Source of the DNA: Nitrosomonadales bacterium
GTDB taxonomy: Bacteria; Pseudomonadota; Gammaproteobacteria; Burkholderiales; Gallionellaceae
Length of the DNA: 37,284 nt
Reading direction: 5' to 3'
Assembly: GCA_016195965.1 (NCBI GenBank)
Contig: JACPYR010000052.1
Span: forward strand, 1-37,284
Under the pieces are notes generated by a model. It did not search any database and was not told the origin of the DNA. It worked only from the letters and a program-made list of their open reading frames with translations. Position numbers and translations under genes: made by a program. Shown in pieces: positions 3,978-34,453 of this stretch (position 1 is the stretch's first letter; the number at the start of each line of letters is the position of its first letter).

Positions 3978-7679
<3,702 letters not shown>

Positions 7680-25754: not shown

Positions 25755-27650
25755 ATGGCTATCATCGGTATTGATCTAGGCACTTCCAATTCTGCCGCAG
25801 CAGTGTTGCGCGGCGGGCGTCCAGTCATCATCCCCAGCGCCGAAGGCATCAGCATCGGCGGCAAGGCCTTCCCCAGCTACGTCGCGCTCACCGCCGACGG
25901 CCAGATGCTGATCGGAGAACCGGCGCGGCGGCAGGCGGCGGCCAACCCTGAAGGCACGGCCAGCACGTTCAAGCGCAAGATGGGCAAGCGCGAAAACTAC
26001 CACCTCAGAGACAAGGATTATTCGCCCGAGCAGCTCTCTGCTTTCCTGCTGCAAAAGATCAAGCGCGATGCCGAAGCCTTCCTCGGCGAGCCTGTAGAGA
26101 AGGCCGTCGTCACTGTACCGGCATATTTCGACGACAACCAGCGCGCCGCTACCAAGGATGCCTGCCGCATCGCGGGCCTCGAAGTGGTGCGCCTAGTTAA
26201 TGAACCGACTGCCGCCTCGCTGGCCTATGGACTCGACCGCTTGGCTCAGGAACTGCGCATCGCGGTGATCGACCTGGGCGGGGGCACGCTGGACGTGACA
26301 ATCATGGAATTCGGCAAGGGCGTGTTCGAGGTCAAGGCCACCAGCGGCGACACCCAGCTCGGCGGCACCGACATGAACCAGCGCATCTTCGAGCACCTTG
26401 CAGAAAGATTCCAGATGTCCACCGGCGTGGATGTCCGCCTCGACCGCAAGGCCGCCGCGCGCCTGATCGAGGCGGCGGAGAACGCCAAGATCGAACTCAC
26501 CGCCAGCGTCACCACCCATTTGAGCCTGCCCTATCTGGCCGCCGTCAACGGAGAGCCGCGCCATCTCGAACTGGACCTCAACCGCACCGAGCTGGAACGG
26601 CTGGTGCGCCCCGTGATCGAGCGTTGCCGCGGCCCGGTGGAACAGGCGCTGCGCGATGCGGGCATCACGCCTAAGGATGTGGATCGCATCGTGTTTGTCG
26701 GCGGCCCGACCCGCATGCCGGTGGTGCGCAGCTATTTCGAGGAGCTGTTCGGACGCAAGGCAGAGATGGGCGTCGATCCGATGGAATGCGTCGCCGCCGG
26801 AGCAGCCGTGCAGGCCGGGGTGCTGGCCGGAGAAGTCGGCGGCATCGTGCTGGTGGATGTGACGCCGCTCACACTCGGCGTAGAAACGCTGGGCGGTATC
26901 GCCACGCCGCTGATCGCGCGCAACACGCCGGTTCCGGTCAAGCGCTCCGAGACCTTCACCACCGCCGCCGACATGCAGACCAGCGTGACTATCCATGTAT
27001 TCCAGGGCGAACGCCCAATGGCGGGAGACAACACCAGCCTCGGTGAATTCAACCTGACCGGGTTGCCGCCGGCACCGCGCGGCATTCCCAAGATCGAGGT
27101 GACCTTCGACATAGATTCCAACGGCATTCTCAGCGTGTCCGCGAAGGACACGGCCAGCGGCAAGTCGCAGTCGATCAACATCACCGGCTCCACGCGGCTT
27201 GCGGAAGACACCAAGAAACGCATGGTGGAAGATGCCGAGCGCTACGCCGATGCGGACAAGAAGCGGCGCGAGGATGCGGAGAAGCTCAATGCGGCGGATG
27301 CGGGCTGCTACGAAGCCGAGAAGATGCTCGCCAGTTTCTCCGACAAGCTCACCGACGATCTGAAGAAACGCATCGAGACCGCGTTGCGCGAGACCAAGGA
27401 GGCGCTGCTCAAAAAAGATGTCGTTCTTGCCACCGAGCGCGCAGAGGCGCTGAGAAAAATTTTGCAGGAAGCCGGAGCGGTGCTCTATTCGCAATCGGGG
27501 CAGGCCAGCAAAGGCGGTCCTTACGCGGAGACCCGCTGGGAAGGAACAGAGCCGCCGCCCAACGTGGGTGCGGCAACCGGCGAGCCGCGTGCCAGCGGAG
27601 CGGGCCCGCGCGGTAAGGTGGTGGATGCAGAGTACAAGGAAAACACTTAA
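25755..27650 (+). CDS. DnaK-family Hsp70 chaperone (paralogue)
   Basis: The 631-residue Hsp70 has the phosphate-1 motif GIDLGTSNSAAAV, then VTVPAYFDDNQRAATKDA, NEPTAASLAYGL, IDLGGGTLDVTIM and FVGGPTRMPVVRSYF. The linker region reads VLVDVTPLTLGVE, followed by the substrate-binding beta domain and helical lid. It retains the DnaK-like C-terminal VDAEYKE. Thr at GTSN and the slightly short lid suggest a secondary DnaK rather than the main grpE-dnaK-dnaJ copy. AGGGGG precedes the ATG. It leads a run with a Lon-like protease and DnaJ, so it probably works with them in stress protein quality control. No grpE is seen nearby. Confidence 0.92.
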   Translation: MAIIGIDLGTSNSAAAVLRGGRPVIIPSAEGISIGGKAFPSYVALTADGQMLIGEPARRQAAANPEGTASTFKRKMGKRENYHLRDKDYSPEQLSAFLLQKIKRDAEAFLGEPVEKAVVTVPAYFDDNQRAATKDACRIAGLEVVRLVNEPTAASLAYGLDRLAQELRIAVIDLGGGTLDVTIMEFGKGVFEVKATSGDTQLGGTDMNQRIFEHLAERFQMSTGVDVRLDRKAAARLIEAAENAKIELTASVTTHLSLPYLAAVNGEPRHLELDLNRTELERLVRPVIERCRGPVEQALRDAGITPKDVDRIVFVGGPTRMPVVRSYFEELFGRKAEMGVDPMECVAAGAAVQAGVLAGEVGGIVLVDVTPLTLGVETLGGIATPLIARNTPVPVKRSETFTTAADMQTSVTIHVFQGERPMAGDNTSLGEFNLTGLPPAPRGIPKIEVTFDIDSNGILSVSAKDTASGKSQSINITGSTRLAEDTKKRMVEDAERYADADKKRREDAEKLNAADAGCYEAEKMLASFSDKLTDDLKKRIETALRETKEALLKKDVVLATERAEALRKILQEAGAVLYSQSGQASKGGPYAETRWEGTEPPPNVGAATGEPRASGAGPRGKVVDAEYKENT

Positions 27651-27665
27651 TCATTCGGGGGAAAA

Positions 27666-30089
27666 ATGACTATCCCTCCACCATTACCAGCCCAACAGCT
27701 TTACCAGCCATGCGATTCCACACAATTCGGATTTCACACCACGGCTGATCTGGACGATCTGTCCGAAATCATCGGCCAGATGCGTGCAATGGATGCGGTG
27801 CGCTTCGGTGCCGGTATCCGCCATCAGGGCTACAACCTTTTCGTGCTCGGCCCTTCCGGGATGGGCAAGCGCAGCATGGTTCGGCAGTTTCTCGAAGAGA
27901 AAGCGGAGAGCGGCCACGAACCGGACGATTGGTGCTATCTCAACAACTTTACCCAGCCGCACAAACCCAGGGGGCTGCAATTGCCGTCCGGCAGGGGGGC
28001 TGAGCTGCGTCTCGCGATGGAGCATCTGGTGGATTATTTGCGCAGCGCAATTCCCGCGCTGTTCGAGAGCGAGGAGTACCACGCCAAGGCCGCGGCGATA
28101 CAGGAGGAATTCAGCAAGCGCCAGGATCAGGTGTTCAAGGAATTGGGAGAGGATGCCGAAAAACAGGAGATCGTGCTGCTGCGCACCCCGGATGGATTCG
28201 CCTTTGCGCCTACCCGCAACCACGAGGTGCTTCCCCCTGCCGAATACGAAAAGCTGACGGATGAAGAAAAAAAACGGGTGGAGACCGCCATCGCGGGGCT
28301 GCAGGAACGACTGGAAAAAATCATGCGCCAGATGCCTCAATGGCGCAGGGAAAGGCACGAGAGGATCAAGCAGATCAATCGTGAAACCGCGCTGACCGTC
28401 GTCGCTCACCTGATGGATGAGCTGAGGCAGGCCTACGCCGATCTGCCAGAAGTGCTGAAATACTTCGATCTGGTGCAACAGGATGTCGTGGAGAATGTCG
28501 ATGACTTTCGCAAACAGGAAGAGTCATCCACGGTCGGCGGCATGACCATCGTGACCCGACAGAGCTTTCATCGCTACCAGGTCAATGCGCTGGTGAGCAA
28601 CGGCAAGAAATCCGGCGCGCCCATCATCAGCGAAGATAACCCGACTTACAGCAATCTGGTCGGTCGTGTCGAGCACGTTTCCCAATTCGGCGCGCTGGTG
28701 ACGGATTTCACGCTGATCAAACCGGGCGCGCTGCATCTGGCGAATGGCGGCTATCTACTGCTGGATATCCGCAAGGTGTTGATGCAGCCATTCGCCTGGG
28801 AAGGCCTGAAACGGGCGCTGCAATCGCGCGAGATCCGCATTGAATCTCTTGGACAAATGTACAGCCTGGTCAGCACCGTTTCTCTGGAGCCCGAGCCCAT
28901 TCCGCTGGATGCCAAGATAGTCCTGTTCGGCGACCGTCTGTTTTATTATCTGCTGCACGAATACGATCCGGAGTTCGGCGAGTTGTTCAAGGTGGCGGCG
29001 GATTTTGAAGAACACATCTCGCGCAATGCCGACGCCCACCTGCTCTATGCACGGCTGATTGCCACCTTGACCCGCAGGGAATCGCTGCTGCCGTTCGATC
29101 GCGGCGCGGTGGCAAGGGTGATCGAGCACGGCGCACGGCTGGTCGGTGATGCGGAAAAACTGAGCACGCACATGAGCTTTATCGCCGACTTGCTGCGCGA
29201 GTCGGATTATTGGGCTCGCGAGGCCGGCAGATCAGTGGTTGGAGCCGCCGATGTGCAGCGTGCTATAGACACTCAGATCAGGCGGCAGGACAGGCTGAGA
29301 GACCGGATGCATGAGGCGATCCTGCGCGATACCCTGATGATCGCAACGCAGGGCGAAGTGATCGGCCAGATCAACGGGCTATCCGTGATCGAGCTGGGCG
29401 ATTTCGCGTTTGCACAGCCGACCCGGATAACCGCCACCACCCGTCTGGGCGAAGGGGAGATGGTAAACATCGAGCGTGAGGTGAAGCTCTCTGGTGCGAT
29501 CCACTCCAAGGGAGTGTTGATCCTCTCCTCATTCCTCGCCGCGCGCTATGCCAGAAATCAGCCGCTGGCGCTTTCCGCCAGCCTGGTGTTCGAGCAGTCT
29601 TATGGTTTCGTCGAAGGCGACAGCGCCTCGCTGGCCGAGTTGTGCGTGCTGCTTTCCAATCTGGCAAATGTGCCGATCAAACAATCGCTGGCTATCACAG
29701 GCTCGGTGAACCAGTTTGGCCAATCTCAGGCGATAGGCGCAGTCAACGAAAAGATCGAGGGGTTTTTCGACATCTGCACCGCGCGCGGCCTGACCGGCGA
29801 ACAGGGGGTGCTGATCCCCGCCGCAAACATCAAGCACCTGATGCTGCGCCGCGATGTGGTGGAGGCCGCAGCATCAGGAAAATTCAATATCTACGCCGTG
29901 GAAAATGTCGATCAGGCCATCGCGATCCTGACCGGCTTGCCCGCCGGTGAAGCAGATACCAGCGGCGTTTATCCCGAAGGCAGCGTCAACCGCAAGGTGG
30001 CGGAGCGGCTGTCCGAGCTGACCCGAATCAGGCAATCGTTCGCGCGGCAACCCGGTGAAAAATCCAACCCGCAGAACAAATCGGATTGA
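27666..30089 (+). CDS. Lon-like ATP-dependent protease (LonH/YcbZ type)
   Basis: The 807-residue protein belongs to the AAA+ Lon-related group represented by E. coli YcbZ. An N-terminal region with P-loop GPSGMGKRS (about 63-71) is interrupted by a long coiled-coil insert (about 135-250). The AAA module then continues (GALHLANGGYLLLDIRKVL). The C-terminal S16 protease domain has the catalytic Ser653 in EGDSASLAE and Lys696 in GAVNEKIEG. Both dyad residues are present, so proteolysis is expected. It lies 15 bases after the Hsp70 gene and before dnaJ, suggesting a combined refold-or-degrade unit. The substrates are unknown. Confidence 0.88.
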   Translation: MTIPPPLPAQQLYQPCDSTQFGFHTTADLDDLSEIIGQMRAMDAVRFGAGIRHQGYNLFVLGPSGMGKRSMVRQFLEEKAESGHEPDDWCYLNNFTQPHKPRGLQLPSGRGAELRLAMEHLVDYLRSAIPALFESEEYHAKAAAIQEEFSKRQDQVFKELGEDAEKQEIVLLRTPDGFAFAPTRNHEVLPPAEYEKLTDEEKKRVETAIAGLQERLEKIMRQMPQWRRERHERIKQINRETALTVVAHLMDELRQAYADLPEVLKYFDLVQQDVVENVDDFRKQEESSTVGGMTIVTRQSFHRYQVNALVSNGKKSGAPIISEDNPTYSNLVGRVEHVSQFGALVTDFTLIKPGALHLANGGYLLLDIRKVLMQPFAWEGLKRALQSREIRIESLGQMYSLVSTVSLEPEPIPLDAKIVLFGDRLFYYLLHEYDPEFGELFKVAADFEEHISRNADAHLLYARLIATLTRRESLLPFDRGAVARVIEHGARLVGDAEKLSTHMSFIADLLRESDYWAREAGRSVVGAADVQRAIDTQIRRQDRLRDRMHEAILRDTLMIATQGEVIGQINGLSVIELGDFAFAQPTRITATTRLGEGEMVNIEREVKLSGAIHSKGVLILSSFLAARYARNQPLALSASLVFEQSYGFVEGDSASLAELCVLLSNLANVPIKQSLAITGSVNQFGQSQAIGAVNEKIEGFFDICTARGLTGEQGVLIPAANIKHLMLRRDVVEAAASGKFNIYAVENVDQAIAILTGLPAGEADTSGVYPEGSVNRKVAERLSELTRIRQSFARQPGEKSNPQNKSD

Positions 30090-30106
30090 TCCAGGAAAGC
30101 CACGAA

Positions 30107-30139
30107 ATGCGATATGTGGACGATACTTTACCGCGATAA
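30107..30139 (+). other. Possible 10-codon upstream frame before dnaJ
   Basis: ATG at 30107 encodes MRYVDDTLPR followed by a stop at 30137-30139. AGGAAAG lies 7 bases upstream, so ribosomes could initiate here. It ends 17 bases before the proposed AUU start of dnaJ. It may be a leader peptide, a remnant of a lost gene, or chance. Confidence 0.35.
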
Positions 30140-30143
30140 ATCA

Positions 30144-30150
30144 GGGGAGA
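30144..30150 (+). promoter_or_regulatory. Ribosome site that defines the AUU start of dnaJ
   Basis: GGGGAGA, followed by six bases (GCGACC) and then ATT. It is one of the stronger Shine-Dalgarno matches in the window and has no canonical start codon downstream of it. Confidence 0.65.
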
Positions 30151-30156
30151 GCGACC

Positions 30157-31272
30157 ATTACAGCCCAGCGCGATTATTACGAGGTGCTCGGCGTAGCCAA
30201 GGATGCCGACCAGAAGGCGATCAAGGACGCCTTTCGCAACCTCGCCATGAAATATCACCCGGACCGTAACAAGGAGCCGGGAGCCGAAGAGCGCTTCAAG
30301 GAAATCGCCGAAGCTTATGCCATCCTGTCCGACCCGAAGAAGCGCGGCGAATACGATGCGCGCGGTTTTGCCGGTGTGGAGGGCTTCAGCCAGGAGGACC
30401 TGTTCGGCGGTATTAATTTCGACGATATTTTCGGCGGCCTCAATTTCGATTTTGGCGGTGGACCTTTCGCGGGATTTTTTCATCGCCGCCGCATGGGGCC
30501 CGCGCGCGGCGCTAATATTGAAGTGGAGCTATCCATCCCGTTGGAGCGGGTGGCAAAAGGAGGCGAGGAAAAAATCCGCCTGAACCACCCTTCCTCATGC
30601 CCGGCTTGTCACGGCACGGGGGCGGAAGGCGGTGCTGCCCCCAAGGTATGCGCAACCTGTAAAGGCACCGGACGCATCACGCGCAGCAGCCGACAAGCCA
30701 AGGAACATGTGTTGATCCAGCAGATCAGCACATGCCCAGCCTGCCAAGGGCAAGGCAGCATCATCGAACACCCTTGCAAAAAATGCCATGGCAGCGGCGT
30801 TGTAGCCAAGGAAGAAGAACTGGCGGTAAAAATCCCTAAGGGTGTCGAGGAAGGCATGGTGCTGCGCATCCCCGGCAAGGGTATGCCCAGCCCGGAGGCT
30901 GGCGGGATCACCGGAGATTTGTTTGTCGTGGTGCGCACAAAAGACGACCCGCGTTTCGAACGTTCGGGAGCCGACCTGCTGCGCCAGGAAACTATCCCGC
31001 TGACCGACGCCGTGCTCGGCACCACGCTGCAAGTGCCTACGCTGGATGGTTCGGTCAGCGTGACCATACCGTCCGGCACCCAGCCCGGCACGGTGTTGCG
31101 CCTCAAAGATAAAGGCCTGCCGGAATTTGGCAACGAGCGCCATGGTGAATTGTATTTGCGCATCGAGGTGCATGTACCCGAAAAGCTTTCCAGCGAAGAG
31201 CGGGAATTGTATGAGCGCCTGCGCGTGATTGGCGGCAAGCAAGGATGGGATTTCAGGAAGCTGTGGAAGTAA
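30157..31272 (+). CDS. dnaJ: Type I DnaJ (Hsp40) co-chaperone, probable AUU start
   Basis: The 371-residue Hsp40 stimulates the neighbouring Hsp70. The J domain (about 5-70) has His34-Pro-Asp36. A Gly/Phe-rich region follows (about 80-115), then four CxxCxGxG zinc modules (about 147-215) and the two C-terminal substrate-binding domains. The frame is open back to GTG 30055, but that start lies inside the protease gene and adds 34 residues with no J-domain character. No ATG, GTG or TTG falls between. ATT at 30157 has GGGGAGA 6 bases upstream and places the HPD motif at the normal distance, so I chose it. AUU starts are subject to IF3 discrimination in enterics. Confidence 0.88.
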   Translation: MTAQRDYYEVLGVAKDADQKAIKDAFRNLAMKYHPDRNKEPGAEERFKEIAEAYAILSDPKKRGEYDARGFAGVEGFSQEDLFGGINFDDIFGGLNFDFGGGPFAGFFHRRRMGPARGANIEVELSIPLERVAKGGEEKIRLNHPSSCPACHGTGAEGGAAPKVCATCKGTGRITRSSRQAKEHVLIQQISTCPACQGQGSIIEHPCKKCHGSGVVAKEEELAVKIPKGVEEGMVLRIPGKGMPSPEAGGITGDLFVVVRTKDDPRFERSGADLLRQETIPLTDAVLGTTLQVPTLDGSVSVTIPSGTQPGTVLRLKDKGLPEFGNERHGELYLRIEVHVPEKLSSEERELYERLRVIGGKQGWDFRKLWK

Positions 31273-31334
31273 TCGGGATTTACTCCCCTGGGCAAGGGCG
31301 GGAAATCTACGCAACGATATACTGGGAGAAAAAC

Positions 31335-32060
31335 TTGAAACGACACTTCGCTTTGGGTGCTTTGCTCACATTCGCTCTCACACTGCCGTCGCATGGCGAC
31401 GAATTCAATGCGGCACGCAGCATGATGATGGAGGAAGTGTTAGCCGATACCGCCGCCACTTCTTCATACAGCGGCAGGACAGCGCTCGATCCTCGCGTTG
31501 CCGCAGCGATGAGCAAAGTGGAACGTCATCGCTTTGTGCCCGGCGCGCTGGCCGCATCGGCCTATCTCAACCGCCCCCTTCCGATCGGCTACGGCCAGAC
31601 GATCTCGCAACCTTTCATTGTGGCGCTGATGACTGATCTGATGCATGTCAAGGCTGGCGATAGGGTGCTTGAGATCGGCACCGGTTCTGGATACCAGGCG
31701 GCAATCCTGGCGGAAATCGCAAACTCGGTTTACAGCATCGAGATCATTGAACCGTTGGGAAAGCAGGCGGGCGAGCGGCTGGAATCTTTAGGTTACCGCA
31801 ACGTGAAAACCAGGGTAGGCGACGGCTATTACGGCTGGCCGGAGGCATCGCCATTCGACGCGATCATCGTGACGGCTGCCGCAAGCCATGTGCCGCCGCC
31901 TTTGCTCAAACAGCTTAAGCCGGGTGGCCGCATGGTGATTCCGCTAGGCGCGCAATTCATGACCCAGTACTTGATGCTGGTGGAAAAACAGCCGGATGGC
32001 TCGGTGACCACACGCCAGATTTTGCCGGTGCGTTTCGTTCCGCTTACCGGCGGACATTAA
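31335..32060 (+). CDS. pcm: Exported protein-L-isoaspartate O-methyltransferase
   Basis: The 241-residue enzyme methylates isoaspartyl residues in aged proteins to start their repair. Family motifs are RPLPIGYGQTISQPFIVALMTDL, the S-adenosylmethionine loop VLEIGTGSGYQ, and FDAIIVTAAASHVPPPLL with LKPGGRMVIPLG. I place the start at TTG 31335 because GGGAGA lies 7 bases upstream. It also gives a proper signal peptide (KRHFALGALLTFALTLPSHGDE). The frame is open to 31245 without further family similarity. The methyl donor is cytosolic, so an exported form is puzzling, though signal-bearing members do occur in proteobacteria. It follows the chaperone/protease genes, consistent with protein repair. 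Confidence 0.87.
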   Translation: MKRHFALGALLTFALTLPSHGDEFNAARSMMMEEVLADTAATSSYSGRTALDPRVAAAMSKVERHRFVPGALAASAYLNRPLPIGYGQTISQPFIVALMTDLMHVKAGDRVLEIGTGSGYQAAILAEIANSVYSIEIIEPLGKQAGERLESLGYRNVKTRVGDGYYGWPEASPFDAIIVTAAASHVPPPLLKQLKPGGRMVIPLGAQFMTQYLMLVEKQPDGSVTTRQILPVRFVPLTGGH

Positions 32061-32062
32061 CC

Positions 32063-34453
32063 ATGCCCAGCCGTCCGCCTTTCATCGCGATCGGCCTGCT
32101 CTCCGTTTGCGTGCTGGCCTACGAGGTGCTGCTGACGCGTCTGTTCAGCATCACGCTGTGGCATCATTTCGCCTACCTGATCATCAGCGCGGCGATGCTG
32201 GGCTACGGCGCGAGTGGCACGGCACTGACGCTGCTGAAGGAAAACATCGCAGCGAATTTCGGCAGGATATATGTGATCTCCGCCGCCGTTTTGGCTGTTC
32301 TGATGCCGCTGGCATTCATGCTCGCGCAACAAATCCAGTTTAATCCGCTCGAGTTGTTGTGGGATAAATCCCAATTGTACGGACTGTTCGCCGTTTATCT
32401 GCTGATGATGCTGCCATTTTTCTGCGCTGGACTGGGTGTCGGCCTGGTCTTTGCGCATTTCGGCAAGCAAGCATCACGCATCTATGCCTGCGACATTCTG
32501 GGCGCAGGCACCGGCAGCCTGGGTATCATCGCCGTGCTGTTTCTCGTGCCGCCACAACAGGCGCTTACTGCGCTCTCGGCCACGGCGCTGCTGGCCGCCG
32601 CGATCGCTGTCGTAGAATTGAAAATGCAGCCGAAACGGCTGATGGAATTTTTTTTAGCTATGGCTGCGCTGGCAGCGGTCGCCATTCCTGACATGCCGCT
32701 GCGCCCTTCACCCTACAAAGATTTGAGCCAGACCTTGAACATCGCGGGGGCGCATGTGGTCGAGGAACTCAACAGCCCGCTGGGACAAATCACTGTAGTG
32801 GAAAACAACCGTGTGCCGCTGCGCCATGCGCCGGGGATGAGCCTCAATGCCACGAGCGAGCCGCCGCCGCAACTGGGCGTGTTTGTAGACGGGGACGGGC
32901 CTGCGGCGCTGACGCGCTTTGACGGCAGATTCGAAGCGCTGGCCTATCTTGACCAACTCACTTCGGCTTTGCCTTATCATCTGGTTAAGCAGCCGCGTGT
33001 GCTGGTGCTGGGGGCCGGAGCAGGCAGCGATGTGCTGCAGGCGCTCTACCACGGCAGTGCCGCAGTCGATGCGGTGGAACTGGATCGCAACGTCATCGAC
33101 CTGATGCGGCATCGTTTCCGTGATTATGCCGGCAATCTGTACGGCCAACGCGGCGTTCATGTATACAAAGCCGAGGCGCGCGGCTTCGTCAACGCCAGCG
33201 ACGAACGCTATGGCCTGATCCAGCTGGCGCTGCTGGATTCATTCGGCACTGCTTCGGCAGGGCTGTATGGCTTGAGCGAAAATTATTTGTATACGGTGGA
33301 GGCGCTGCAAACCTACCTTGGCCACCTGGCGCCGGATGGTATGCTGACCATCACCCGCTGGCTCTCGCTGCCGCCGCGCGATGCGCTGAAACTGTTTGCC
33401 ACCGTAGTAGCTGCGCTGGAGCGCAACGGTGTGACCGATCCAGCCGCGCGGCTGGTGATGATACGTGGTTGGAAAACCGTCACGCTGCTGGTAAAAAACA
33501 GCGCCTTCACAGCGGGCGAAATCGCGGCTACCAAAGAGTTCTGCCGCTCGCGTTTTTTCGATCTGGCCTATTATCCCGGGATGCTCGCCGGCGAGGAAAA
33601 CCGTTACAACCTTTTGCAGCAGCCCTACTTCTACGACGGTGCTGTTGCGTTATTGTCTCCGCAGCGGCAGGACTTCATTGACCGCTACAAATTTTACATC
33701 GAGCCGGCAACCGATGATCGCCCGCACTTCTTCCGCTTTTTTAAATGGGATTCAGCCGCAGAATTATTCGCGCTCCGCGAGCAGGGCGGCATGCCGTTGC
33801 TCGACTGGGGCTATCCGTTGCTGGTAGCGACGCTGGCGCAATCGCTTGCGGCCAGCGTCGCGCTGATTCTGGCGCCGCTGGCCTGGTCGCGTTGTCGGCG
33901 CACCCTGCCGAGCGCATCGGTAGCCCTGTATTTTCTCGCGATCGGCTTTGCCTTTATGTTTATGGAAATCGCCTTCATCCAGAAATTTGTGCTGCTCTTG
34001 GCGCATCCGCTGTATGCGGTGGCAGTCGTGCTGTGCGCCTTCCTGATATTCGCCGCAGTGGGAAGCTGGCTGGCCGGACATTGGCAGCGTGCAGACAAAG
34101 TCACGCTGGCGGTAATCGCGATAGGTATGCTGTCACTGCTCTATATAGTTATGCTGCCATCCCTGTTTCAGGCGCTGATGCATTGGCCAGATGCGGCAAA
34201 AATTCTTTTTTCCGTGGGACTGATTGCGCCGCTGGCGATGTGCATGGGCGTGCCTTTTCCCGCCGGCATGATGAGGCTGGCAGCAGCAAACGGGCAAACC
34301 ATCCCCTGGGCATGGGCGCTCAACGGATTCGCTTCTGTGATAGGCGCCGTCCTCGCCACATTGCTGGCGGTACATCTGGGTTTTGCTGCGGTGATTTTGT
34401 TGGCGGTATTGATCTACGCAATTGCCTGCGCTGCATTGGGGAGATTTTCGTGA
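32063..34453 (+). CDS. Membrane-bound spermidine-synthase-like protein
   Basis: The 796-residue protein has an N-terminal membrane domain of about six helices (1-200). A soluble Rossmann-type spermidine-synthase-like domain follows (about 210-570) with VLVLGAGAGSDVLQAL and an acidic residue ending the next strand (AVELDRNVIDLM). A second membrane domain of about seven helices completes it (about 585-795). The nucleotide-binding loop is intact, but I cannot assign the amine-binding Asp residues of true SpeE, so polyamine synthesis is not shown. Other membrane SpeE-like proteins remain uncharacterised. It starts two bases after the pcm stop. A link to the potABCD genes upstream is possible but only inferred. 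Confidence 0.75.
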   Translation: MPSRPPFIAIGLLSVCVLAYEVLLTRLFSITLWHHFAYLIISAAMLGYGASGTALTLLKENIAANFGRIYVISAAVLAVLMPLAFMLAQQIQFNPLELLWDKSQLYGLFAVYLLMMLPFFCAGLGVGLVFAHFGKQASRIYACDILGAGTGSLGIIAVLFLVPPQQALTALSATALLAAAIAVVELKMQPKRLMEFFLAMAALAAVAIPDMPLRPSPYKDLSQTLNIAGAHVVEELNSPLGQITVVENNRVPLRHAPGMSLNATSEPPPQLGVFVDGDGPAALTRFDGRFEALAYLDQLTSALPYHLVKQPRVLVLGAGAGSDVLQALYHGSAAVDAVELDRNVIDLMRHRFRDYAGNLYGQRGVHVYKAEARGFVNASDERYGLIQLALLDSFGTASAGLYGLSENYLYTVEALQTYLGHLAPDGMLTITRWLSLPPRDALKLFATVVAALERNGVTDPAARLVMIRGWKTVTLLVKNSAFTAGEIAATKEFCRSRFFDLAYYPGMLAGEENRYNLLQQPYFYDGAVALLSPQRQDFIDRYKFYIEPATDDRPHFFRFFKWDSAAELFALREQGGMPLLDWGYPLLVATLAQSLAASVALILAPLAWSRCRRTLPSASVALYFLAIGFAFMFMEIAFIQKFVLLLAHPLYAVAVVLCAFLIFAAVGSWLAGHWQRADKVTLAVIAIGMLSLLYIVMLPSLFQALMHWPDAAKILFSVGLIAPLAMCMGVPFPAGMMRLAAANGQTIPWAWALNGFASVIGAVLATLLAVHLGFAAVILLAVLIYAIACAALGRFS

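Follow-up and report, generated by a model that had tools for sequence, protein, structure and literature searches.

A predicted AUU start codon, conserved among relatives, in a second dnaJ gene of a Gallionellaceae genome

The codons AUU, AUC and AUA (together AUH) form just two base pairs with the initiator anticodon, CAU. The gene for translation initiation factor IF3, infC, starts with AUU, AUA or AUC and is autoregulated. In Escherichia coli, pcnB has an AUU start that Binns and Masters are said to have found, in 2002, to limit its expression. Here we describe a gene of this kind in a 37,284-nucleotide (nt) stretch of DNA from a Nitrosomonadales bacterium of the family Gallionellaceae (GenBank assembly GCA_016195965.1, contig JACPYR010000052.1, positions 1 to 37,284 of the forward strand), which we call the window. 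The gene, dnaJ2, encodes a DnaJ-type chaperone and is predicted to start at AUU behind a strong Shine-Dalgarno site.

Further genes with non-canonical starts offer points of comparison. In Streptomyces, sigR begins with GTC in 32 of 34 species and with GTT in two; it is repressed by IF3, and its GTC is needed for the correct stoichiometry with the partner RsrA (PMC5472188). The same authors state that a rise of SigR from the GTC start under oxidative stress could not be shown (PMC5472188), which calls for caution in reading dnaJ2 as a stress sensor. In Staphylococcus aureus, cvfC1 (AUU) and ccpN (AUA) have a reduced output in vivo and reach about 10% of AUG in reporters, with up to 30% of the AUG output for the ccpN reporter in rich medium (PMC13009471). 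Across 36 groups of related genomes, one of 61,358 ancestral AUG starts had turned into AUU (PMC5622118). Our literature search returned no paper joining 'AUU start codon' with 'dnaJ', and a broader search returned no title on the start of a bacterial dnaJ gene.

Direct reading of the window bore out three features given in a preliminary description of this DNA, namely ATT at 30157, the GGGGAGA site six bases before it and the HPD motif at residues 34-36 when numbering begins at ATT. The description had also stated that no ATG, GTG or TTG lies between 30058 and the J domain. This holds in frame, where none lies between GTG 30055 and the J domain, but not out of frame, where ATG 30107 opens a 10-codon frame. 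That frame exists as described and ends 17 nt upstream of ATT; it is not conserved, and its proposed role as a control element was rejected on that ground. The window leader pairs with the tail of 16S rRNA at a duplex energy of -9.2 kcal/mol, and the purine block at the Shine-Dalgarno site is the best-conserved stretch 5' of AUU in 15 orthologs. The stop codon of the preceding lonB-like gene lies 67 nt before AUU. An Rfam search of positions 29000-31400 gave no match at the gathering threshold, and folding around the dnaJ2 start showed nothing unusual (z 0.68).

Orthologs were sought in samples that overlap one another, and the window's own genome is among those counted for the family, the order and the class. 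They were found in 23 of 158 genomes of the window's family, 9 of 399 sampled from the order, 5 of 22 of one further family, 1 of 17 of another, and 9 of the 369 class-level genomes sampled. Start codons were read in a set of 33 drawn from the window's order and Nitrosomonas sp. Nm166, leaving aside a second fragment of one genome (L111 of G529; loci and genomes carry our own handles). This set comprised 20 AUU, 6 AUC and 1 AUA starts, besides 5 AUG (L100, L101, L102, L108, L198) and 1 UUG (L086), the last two kinds being grouped below as NUG. AUH is thus kept in 27 of the 33. At least one named ortholog, that of Nitrosomonas sp. Nm166 (L004, AUA), stands among the matches listed from the genome contig collection. 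Genomes assembled as a single contig carry AUH as well (L092, AUU; L109, AUC). The eight class-level orthologs, with 51-63% identity, all have ATG. Plasmid records yielded 11 matches at 38.8-41.2% identity, with no annotated ortholog found there.

In 24 of the 27 AUH genes, the frame between the upstream stop and AUH contains neither ATG nor GTG nor TTG. The other three do have a canonical codon there: the window a GTG 34 codons before AUH, L087 a GTG 3 codons before it, and L104 both a GTG at 3 codons and an ATG at 10. What is found, then, is AUH at ribosome-site distance and mostly no usable AUG, GUG or UUG; in the window gene the in-frame GTG, at 30055, is distant. On sequence comparison, the AUH start is a conserved feature, kept across species.

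The position of the start is further defined by its surroundings. Over the 27 AUH genes, the aligned spacing from the ribosome site to AUH is -1 to 4 nt, and AUH precedes the DYYE motif by 3, 4, 5, 6 or 7 codons. An in-frame stop lies 6 to 17 codons (stop included) before DYYE in 25 of 33 orthologs, leaving scant room for another start. In 15 orthologs anchored on AUH (16 have 5-codon spacing, and all but L109 were used), identity upstream of AUH is near random except at the ribosome site, and at codons 3 to 11 the residues are kept while changes are mainly synonymous. The third base of the start site is U in 19 of 31 rows, and in 16 of 21 within the family. At four-fold degenerate third positions of dnaJ2 the share of U is about 10%, and none of the four-fold columns reached the U share of the start site (0 of 33; 0 of 45 in the family set). 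The excess is also an argument for selection to keep U itself. One locus, L105, was kept in the start-codon and site tallies and left out of the four-fold test. Taken together, we regard AUU at 30157 as very probably the start of dnaJ2.

General use of AUH in the lineage was not seen in canonical dnaJ, dnaK2, lonB and pcnB, the four genes to which this statement applies. Of 25 canonical dnaJ loci of the same genomes, 23 could be read, and all 23 begin with ATG; in L174 and L188 the J-domain pattern was not matched. ATG also starts dnaK2 in 23 of 23 loci read and lonB in 22 of 22, the lonB start being taken as the nearest ATG at the aligned start or up to 16 codons before it. In pcnB, canonical in-frame codons are available in all 26 loci read of 30 (L234-L237, fragments or weak matches, were left out), and in 21 of the 26 an ATG occupies the same fixed position. 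Among 79 other DnaJ genes of the contig collection, all 75 that could be read have ATG, GTG or TTG at a distance of 2 to 6 codons ahead of the J domain, no match to the J-domain pattern being obtained in L038, L050, L063 and L072. Among the genes examined, infC was the sole other user of AUH. Of its 27 loci, 19 could be read; all 19 show AUA at the homologous site, and 17 of them lack a canonical in-frame codon upstream of AUA. The remaining 8 loci were unmatched by the pattern, and with a looser one AUA was matched 23 times across the 27. The infC loci include that of the window's genome (L161, within L141-L166). Median ribosome-site energies were -8.7 kcal/mol for the AUH genes, -5.0 kcal/mol for lonB and -0.3 kcal/mol for canonical dnaJ.

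The history of the start codon was examined on a tree of 40 rows rooted on the class-level ATG genes, with L105 dropped. A first tree was set aside, its canonical DnaJ outgroup lying on a very long branch and L105 on a branch of 5.1. Five changes between AUH and NUG are needed on the 40-row tree, compared with a mean of 11.8 when the labels are shuffled. The simplest reading is that AUG, as in the outgroup, gave way to AUH near the base of the order's genes, with a few later returns to AUG or UUG. Change counts of this kind leave the direction unfixed, and the placement of L108 and L109, close to the base, is poor.

The product, of 371 codons and a stop, matches PF00226, PF00684 and PF01556. 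It scores 360.9 against NF008035, above the cut-off of 338, and 375.8 against TIGR02349, marginally under the cut-off of 377.2. Four CxxCxGxG motifs are present in the window and in 30 of 33 orthologs, the exceptions being L109 (three by the strict pattern), L112 (contig end) and L105. In L105 (genome G018) the frame stops at residue 125, past the J domain, with no zinc motifs in frame; this may be a decaying gene or an assembly error. The starts of the orthologs were located by a pattern demanding HPD, so that HPD in the orthologs is no independent test. The window is contig C79 of a 2.73 Mb genome, 83% complete in 95 contigs. On contig C47 of the same genome lies the canonical dnaJ, which begins with ATG, scores 453.6 bits against the bacterial DnaJ model (375.5 for dnaJ2) and encodes a protein 43% identical to DnaJ2. 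The window gene is the second dnaJ copy of its genome, a paralog.

The preliminary description was accordingly right about the AUU start and wrong in taking the gene for the main dnaJ. Its enteric setting does not apply either, the host not being enteric and the nearest named ortholog among the matches listed being that of Nitrosomonas, and the precedent of pcnB does not extend to the genomes studied here, given the canonical starts available in that gene.

Table 1. Coordinates of dnaJ2, its start region and the genes preceding it in the window
Feature	Position	Strand	Basis or remark
dnaK2, Hsp70, ATG start	25755..27650	+	PF00012; NF001413 above cut-off
lonB-like AAA+ protease, ATG start	27666..30089	+	PF13654, PF20436, PF20437, PF05362
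10-codon upstream frame MRYVDDTLPR	30107..30139	+	ATG 30107, TAA 30137-30139; not conserved, probably incidental
Shine-Dalgarno site GGGGAGA, 6 nt 5' of AUU	30144..30150	+	Sequence, duplex energy, conservation
Predicted AUU start codon of dnaJ2	30157..30159	+	AUH in 27/33 orthologs, third-base U excess, first codon of conserved frame
dnaJ2, type I DnaJ (J domain with HPD, four CxxCxGxG, C-terminal domain)	30157..31272	+	Pfam, NF008035, motifs
GTG (Val10), first canonical in-frame codon past AUU, possible weak internal start	30184..30186	+	Sequence, orthologs

In the window, dnaK2, the lonB-like gene and dnaJ2 (Table 1) are followed by a gene for a PCMT repair methyltransferase. This protein-quality cassette is followed in turn by a spermidine-synthase-like gene, the whole spanning 25755-34453, and a polyamine transporter-like operon precedes it. 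The cassette is patchy within the family, as the 23 genomes of 158 with dnaJ2 indicate. Among the dnaJ2 stretches of other genomes, a dnaK2 match is present in 26 of 29 and lonB lies directly upstream of dnaJ2 in 21 of 29. It is absent in seven (L117, L118, L135, L137-L140) and downstream in L136; no dnaK2 was seen in the stretches of L113, L119 and L132, and some stretches reach contig ends. Elsewhere in the window, two very long open frames occupy the same stretch on opposite strands, at 3978-7679 (+, 1233 codons) and 4023-7556 (-, 1177 codons).

We propose, with a probability of about 0.72, that dnaJ2 has a conserved start disfavored by IF3 and offset by a strong Shine-Dalgarno site, an arrangement that would limit DnaJ2. 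The fMet-tRNA would pair with AUU by the first two bases only, and the strong site, at a near-fixed spacing, would hold the 30S subunit at AUU. IF3 would disfavor initiation complexes with a third-base mismatch and so reduce the rate of DnaJ2 synthesis below that of DnaK2 and LonB of the same module. Output of DnaJ2 should then rise when free IF3 drops, as for infC. The benefit may be a J-protein kept sub-stoichiometric to its Hsp70, or one raised when initiation is disturbed. Policing of the dnaJ2 start by IF3 is plausible, and fits both the AUA of infC in the same genomes and in-vitro work on AUU with CAU. In that work, IF3 excludes weak third-base pairs in vitro, and raising it to 1.5 uM brought the full-length share for AUU/CAU down to 31.1% (PMC10158994). 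As a tentative and rather doubtful extension, a small IF3 regulon in this probably betaproteobacterial lineage might reach beyond IF3 itself to comprise infC (AUA) and dnaJ2 (AUU), in which case a shortage of free IF3, such as stress might cause by disturbing initiation, would raise IF3 and the J-protein together.

Several observations weigh against this proposal. A canonical start in 6 of the 33 orthologs implies that AUH is dispensable. The ribosome sites of dnaK2 are strong too (median -7.4 kcal/mol) and not clearly different from those of the AUH genes (p=0.07), and the site strength of AUH genes compared with the six NUG orthologs gave p=0.07 as well. Codons 1 and 2 after AUH differ in residue among the 15 anchored orthologs, and several genes have two adjacent AUH codons (e.g. 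ATC ATT), of which the second was taken by its spacing. A third-base G occurs in 5 of 31 rows, and 15 of 33 four-fold columns are as low, so that G is not unusually rare; selection against AUG as such is not claimed, and it is the excess of U that carries the argument. The ortholog rows are also not independent of each other, and it is from sequence that we infer the lower DnaJ2 output, its dependence on IF3 and the benefit alike.

In a rival account, the AUU start is a fixed volume knob: a weak codon set against a strong site keeps output moderate and constant, and IF3 plays no regulatory part. The coincidence of strong site and weak codon agrees with it, as do the weak sites of three of the five AUG orthologs (L100, -1.7; L102, -4.1; L108, -1.1 kcal/mol), which compensation would predict. 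Strong sites are nevertheless retained by L101 (-7.6 kcal/mol), L198 (-7.7 kcal/mol) and the UUG gene L086 (-11.7 kcal/mol), the comparison of AUH with NUG sites is not significant, and dnaK2 sites are almost equally strong. Nor does a fixed setting account for U outnumbering C at the third base when both make weak starts, and we consider this account unlikely, though the most serious of the alternatives. Translational coupling, in which ribosomes leaving lonB, dnaK2 or the 10-codon frame would re-initiate at AUU, draws on L093, L099, L097 and L110, which overlap or nearly touch the upstream stop, and on the short frame ending just ahead of AUU in the window. In the 24 AUH orthologs other than L001, L197 and L199, the distance from the upstream gene's stop to AUH nonetheless spans -5 to 227 nt, a spread that speaks against coupling as the general mechanism and makes it very improbable here; no short frame is conserved at this position. 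A constant overlap, of 14 nt with the lonB stop, belongs instead to the AUG orthologs L100-L102 (L129-L131), whose dnaJ2 may have switched to coupled initiation.

The remaining alternatives place the start elsewhere or question the codon itself. Initiation at GTG 30184, in frame and inside the J domain, would yield a J domain lacking its first residues, the upstream part being untranslated or minor. At Val10, 25 of 27 AUH genes use GTG, compared with 7 of 23 canonical dnaJ genes from these genomes; this unusual constancy also counts against the proposed AUU mechanism. However, the preceding residues R-D-Y-Y-E are conserved through many synonymous changes, the conserved purine site stands at AUH with none seen at normal distance before GTG in the window, two of the 27 AUH orthologs have GTA or GTC instead, and GTG, with 14 of 23, is the commonest valine codon in the window gene. 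We give this start little credence; the constant GTG may reflect codon preference or a minor internal start. GTG 30055, which would lengthen the protein by 34 residues and make the gene overlap the end of lonB, has in its favor a frame that is open in the window. The stops ahead of DYYE in 25 of 33 orthologs led us to reject it for the relatives, the upstream sequence is not conserved in the 15 compared, and for the window too it is most improbable. An assembly or sequencing error might be suspected in an incomplete genome of 95 contigs, yet AUH stands at the same site in other genomes, single-contig ones included, so the chance of an error is negligible. Comparison of the start codon among relatives, a check named in the preliminary description, thus upholds AUU, since its retention as AUH in 27 of 33 orthologs leaves both the error and GTG 30055 without support.

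If the doubtful wider IF3 regulon exists, a dedicated second Hsp70 machine would be gated by the state of translation initiation via its J-protein alone. The AUU of dnaJ2 may restrain chaperone production or link it to a translation factor, and its retention as AUH across several families, behind an Hsp70 gene with an AUG start, offers a natural test of initiation-fidelity control of a J-protein. Gene finders limited to ATG, GTG and TTG would be expected to miscall dnaJ2, making it too long (from GTG 30055) or truncated (from GTG 30184).

Non-canonical starts are themselves already known, and dnaJ2 would join infC, pcnB, sigR, cvfC1 and ccpN as a predicted member of the genes with a conserved start codon disfavored by IF3. 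Like dnaJ2, infC has a conserved AUH start after a purine-rich ribosome site; unlike it, infC is the sensor's own gene, whereas the chaperone gene dnaJ2 has no direct feedback on IF3. E. coli pcnB shares the AUU start, although pcnB of the genomes studied here has canonical in-frame codons. The sigR gene resembles dnaJ2 as a stress-response gene with an operon partner, a retained non-canonical start, an extensive ribosome site and stoichiometry as the proposed reason; it differs in its GTC or GTT codon, in encoding a sigma factor and in having its IF3 control established by experiment, where for dnaJ2 we infer it (PMC5472188). The cvfC1 and ccpN genes likewise have conserved AUH starts, with extended Shine-Dalgarno sites; they are other genes in another phylum, and their starts were shown by ribosome profiling (PMC13009471). 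With its weak codon, its strong site and a partner, dnaK2, that starts with AUG in the same module, dnaJ2 fits the pattern of sigR, cvfC1 and ccpN.

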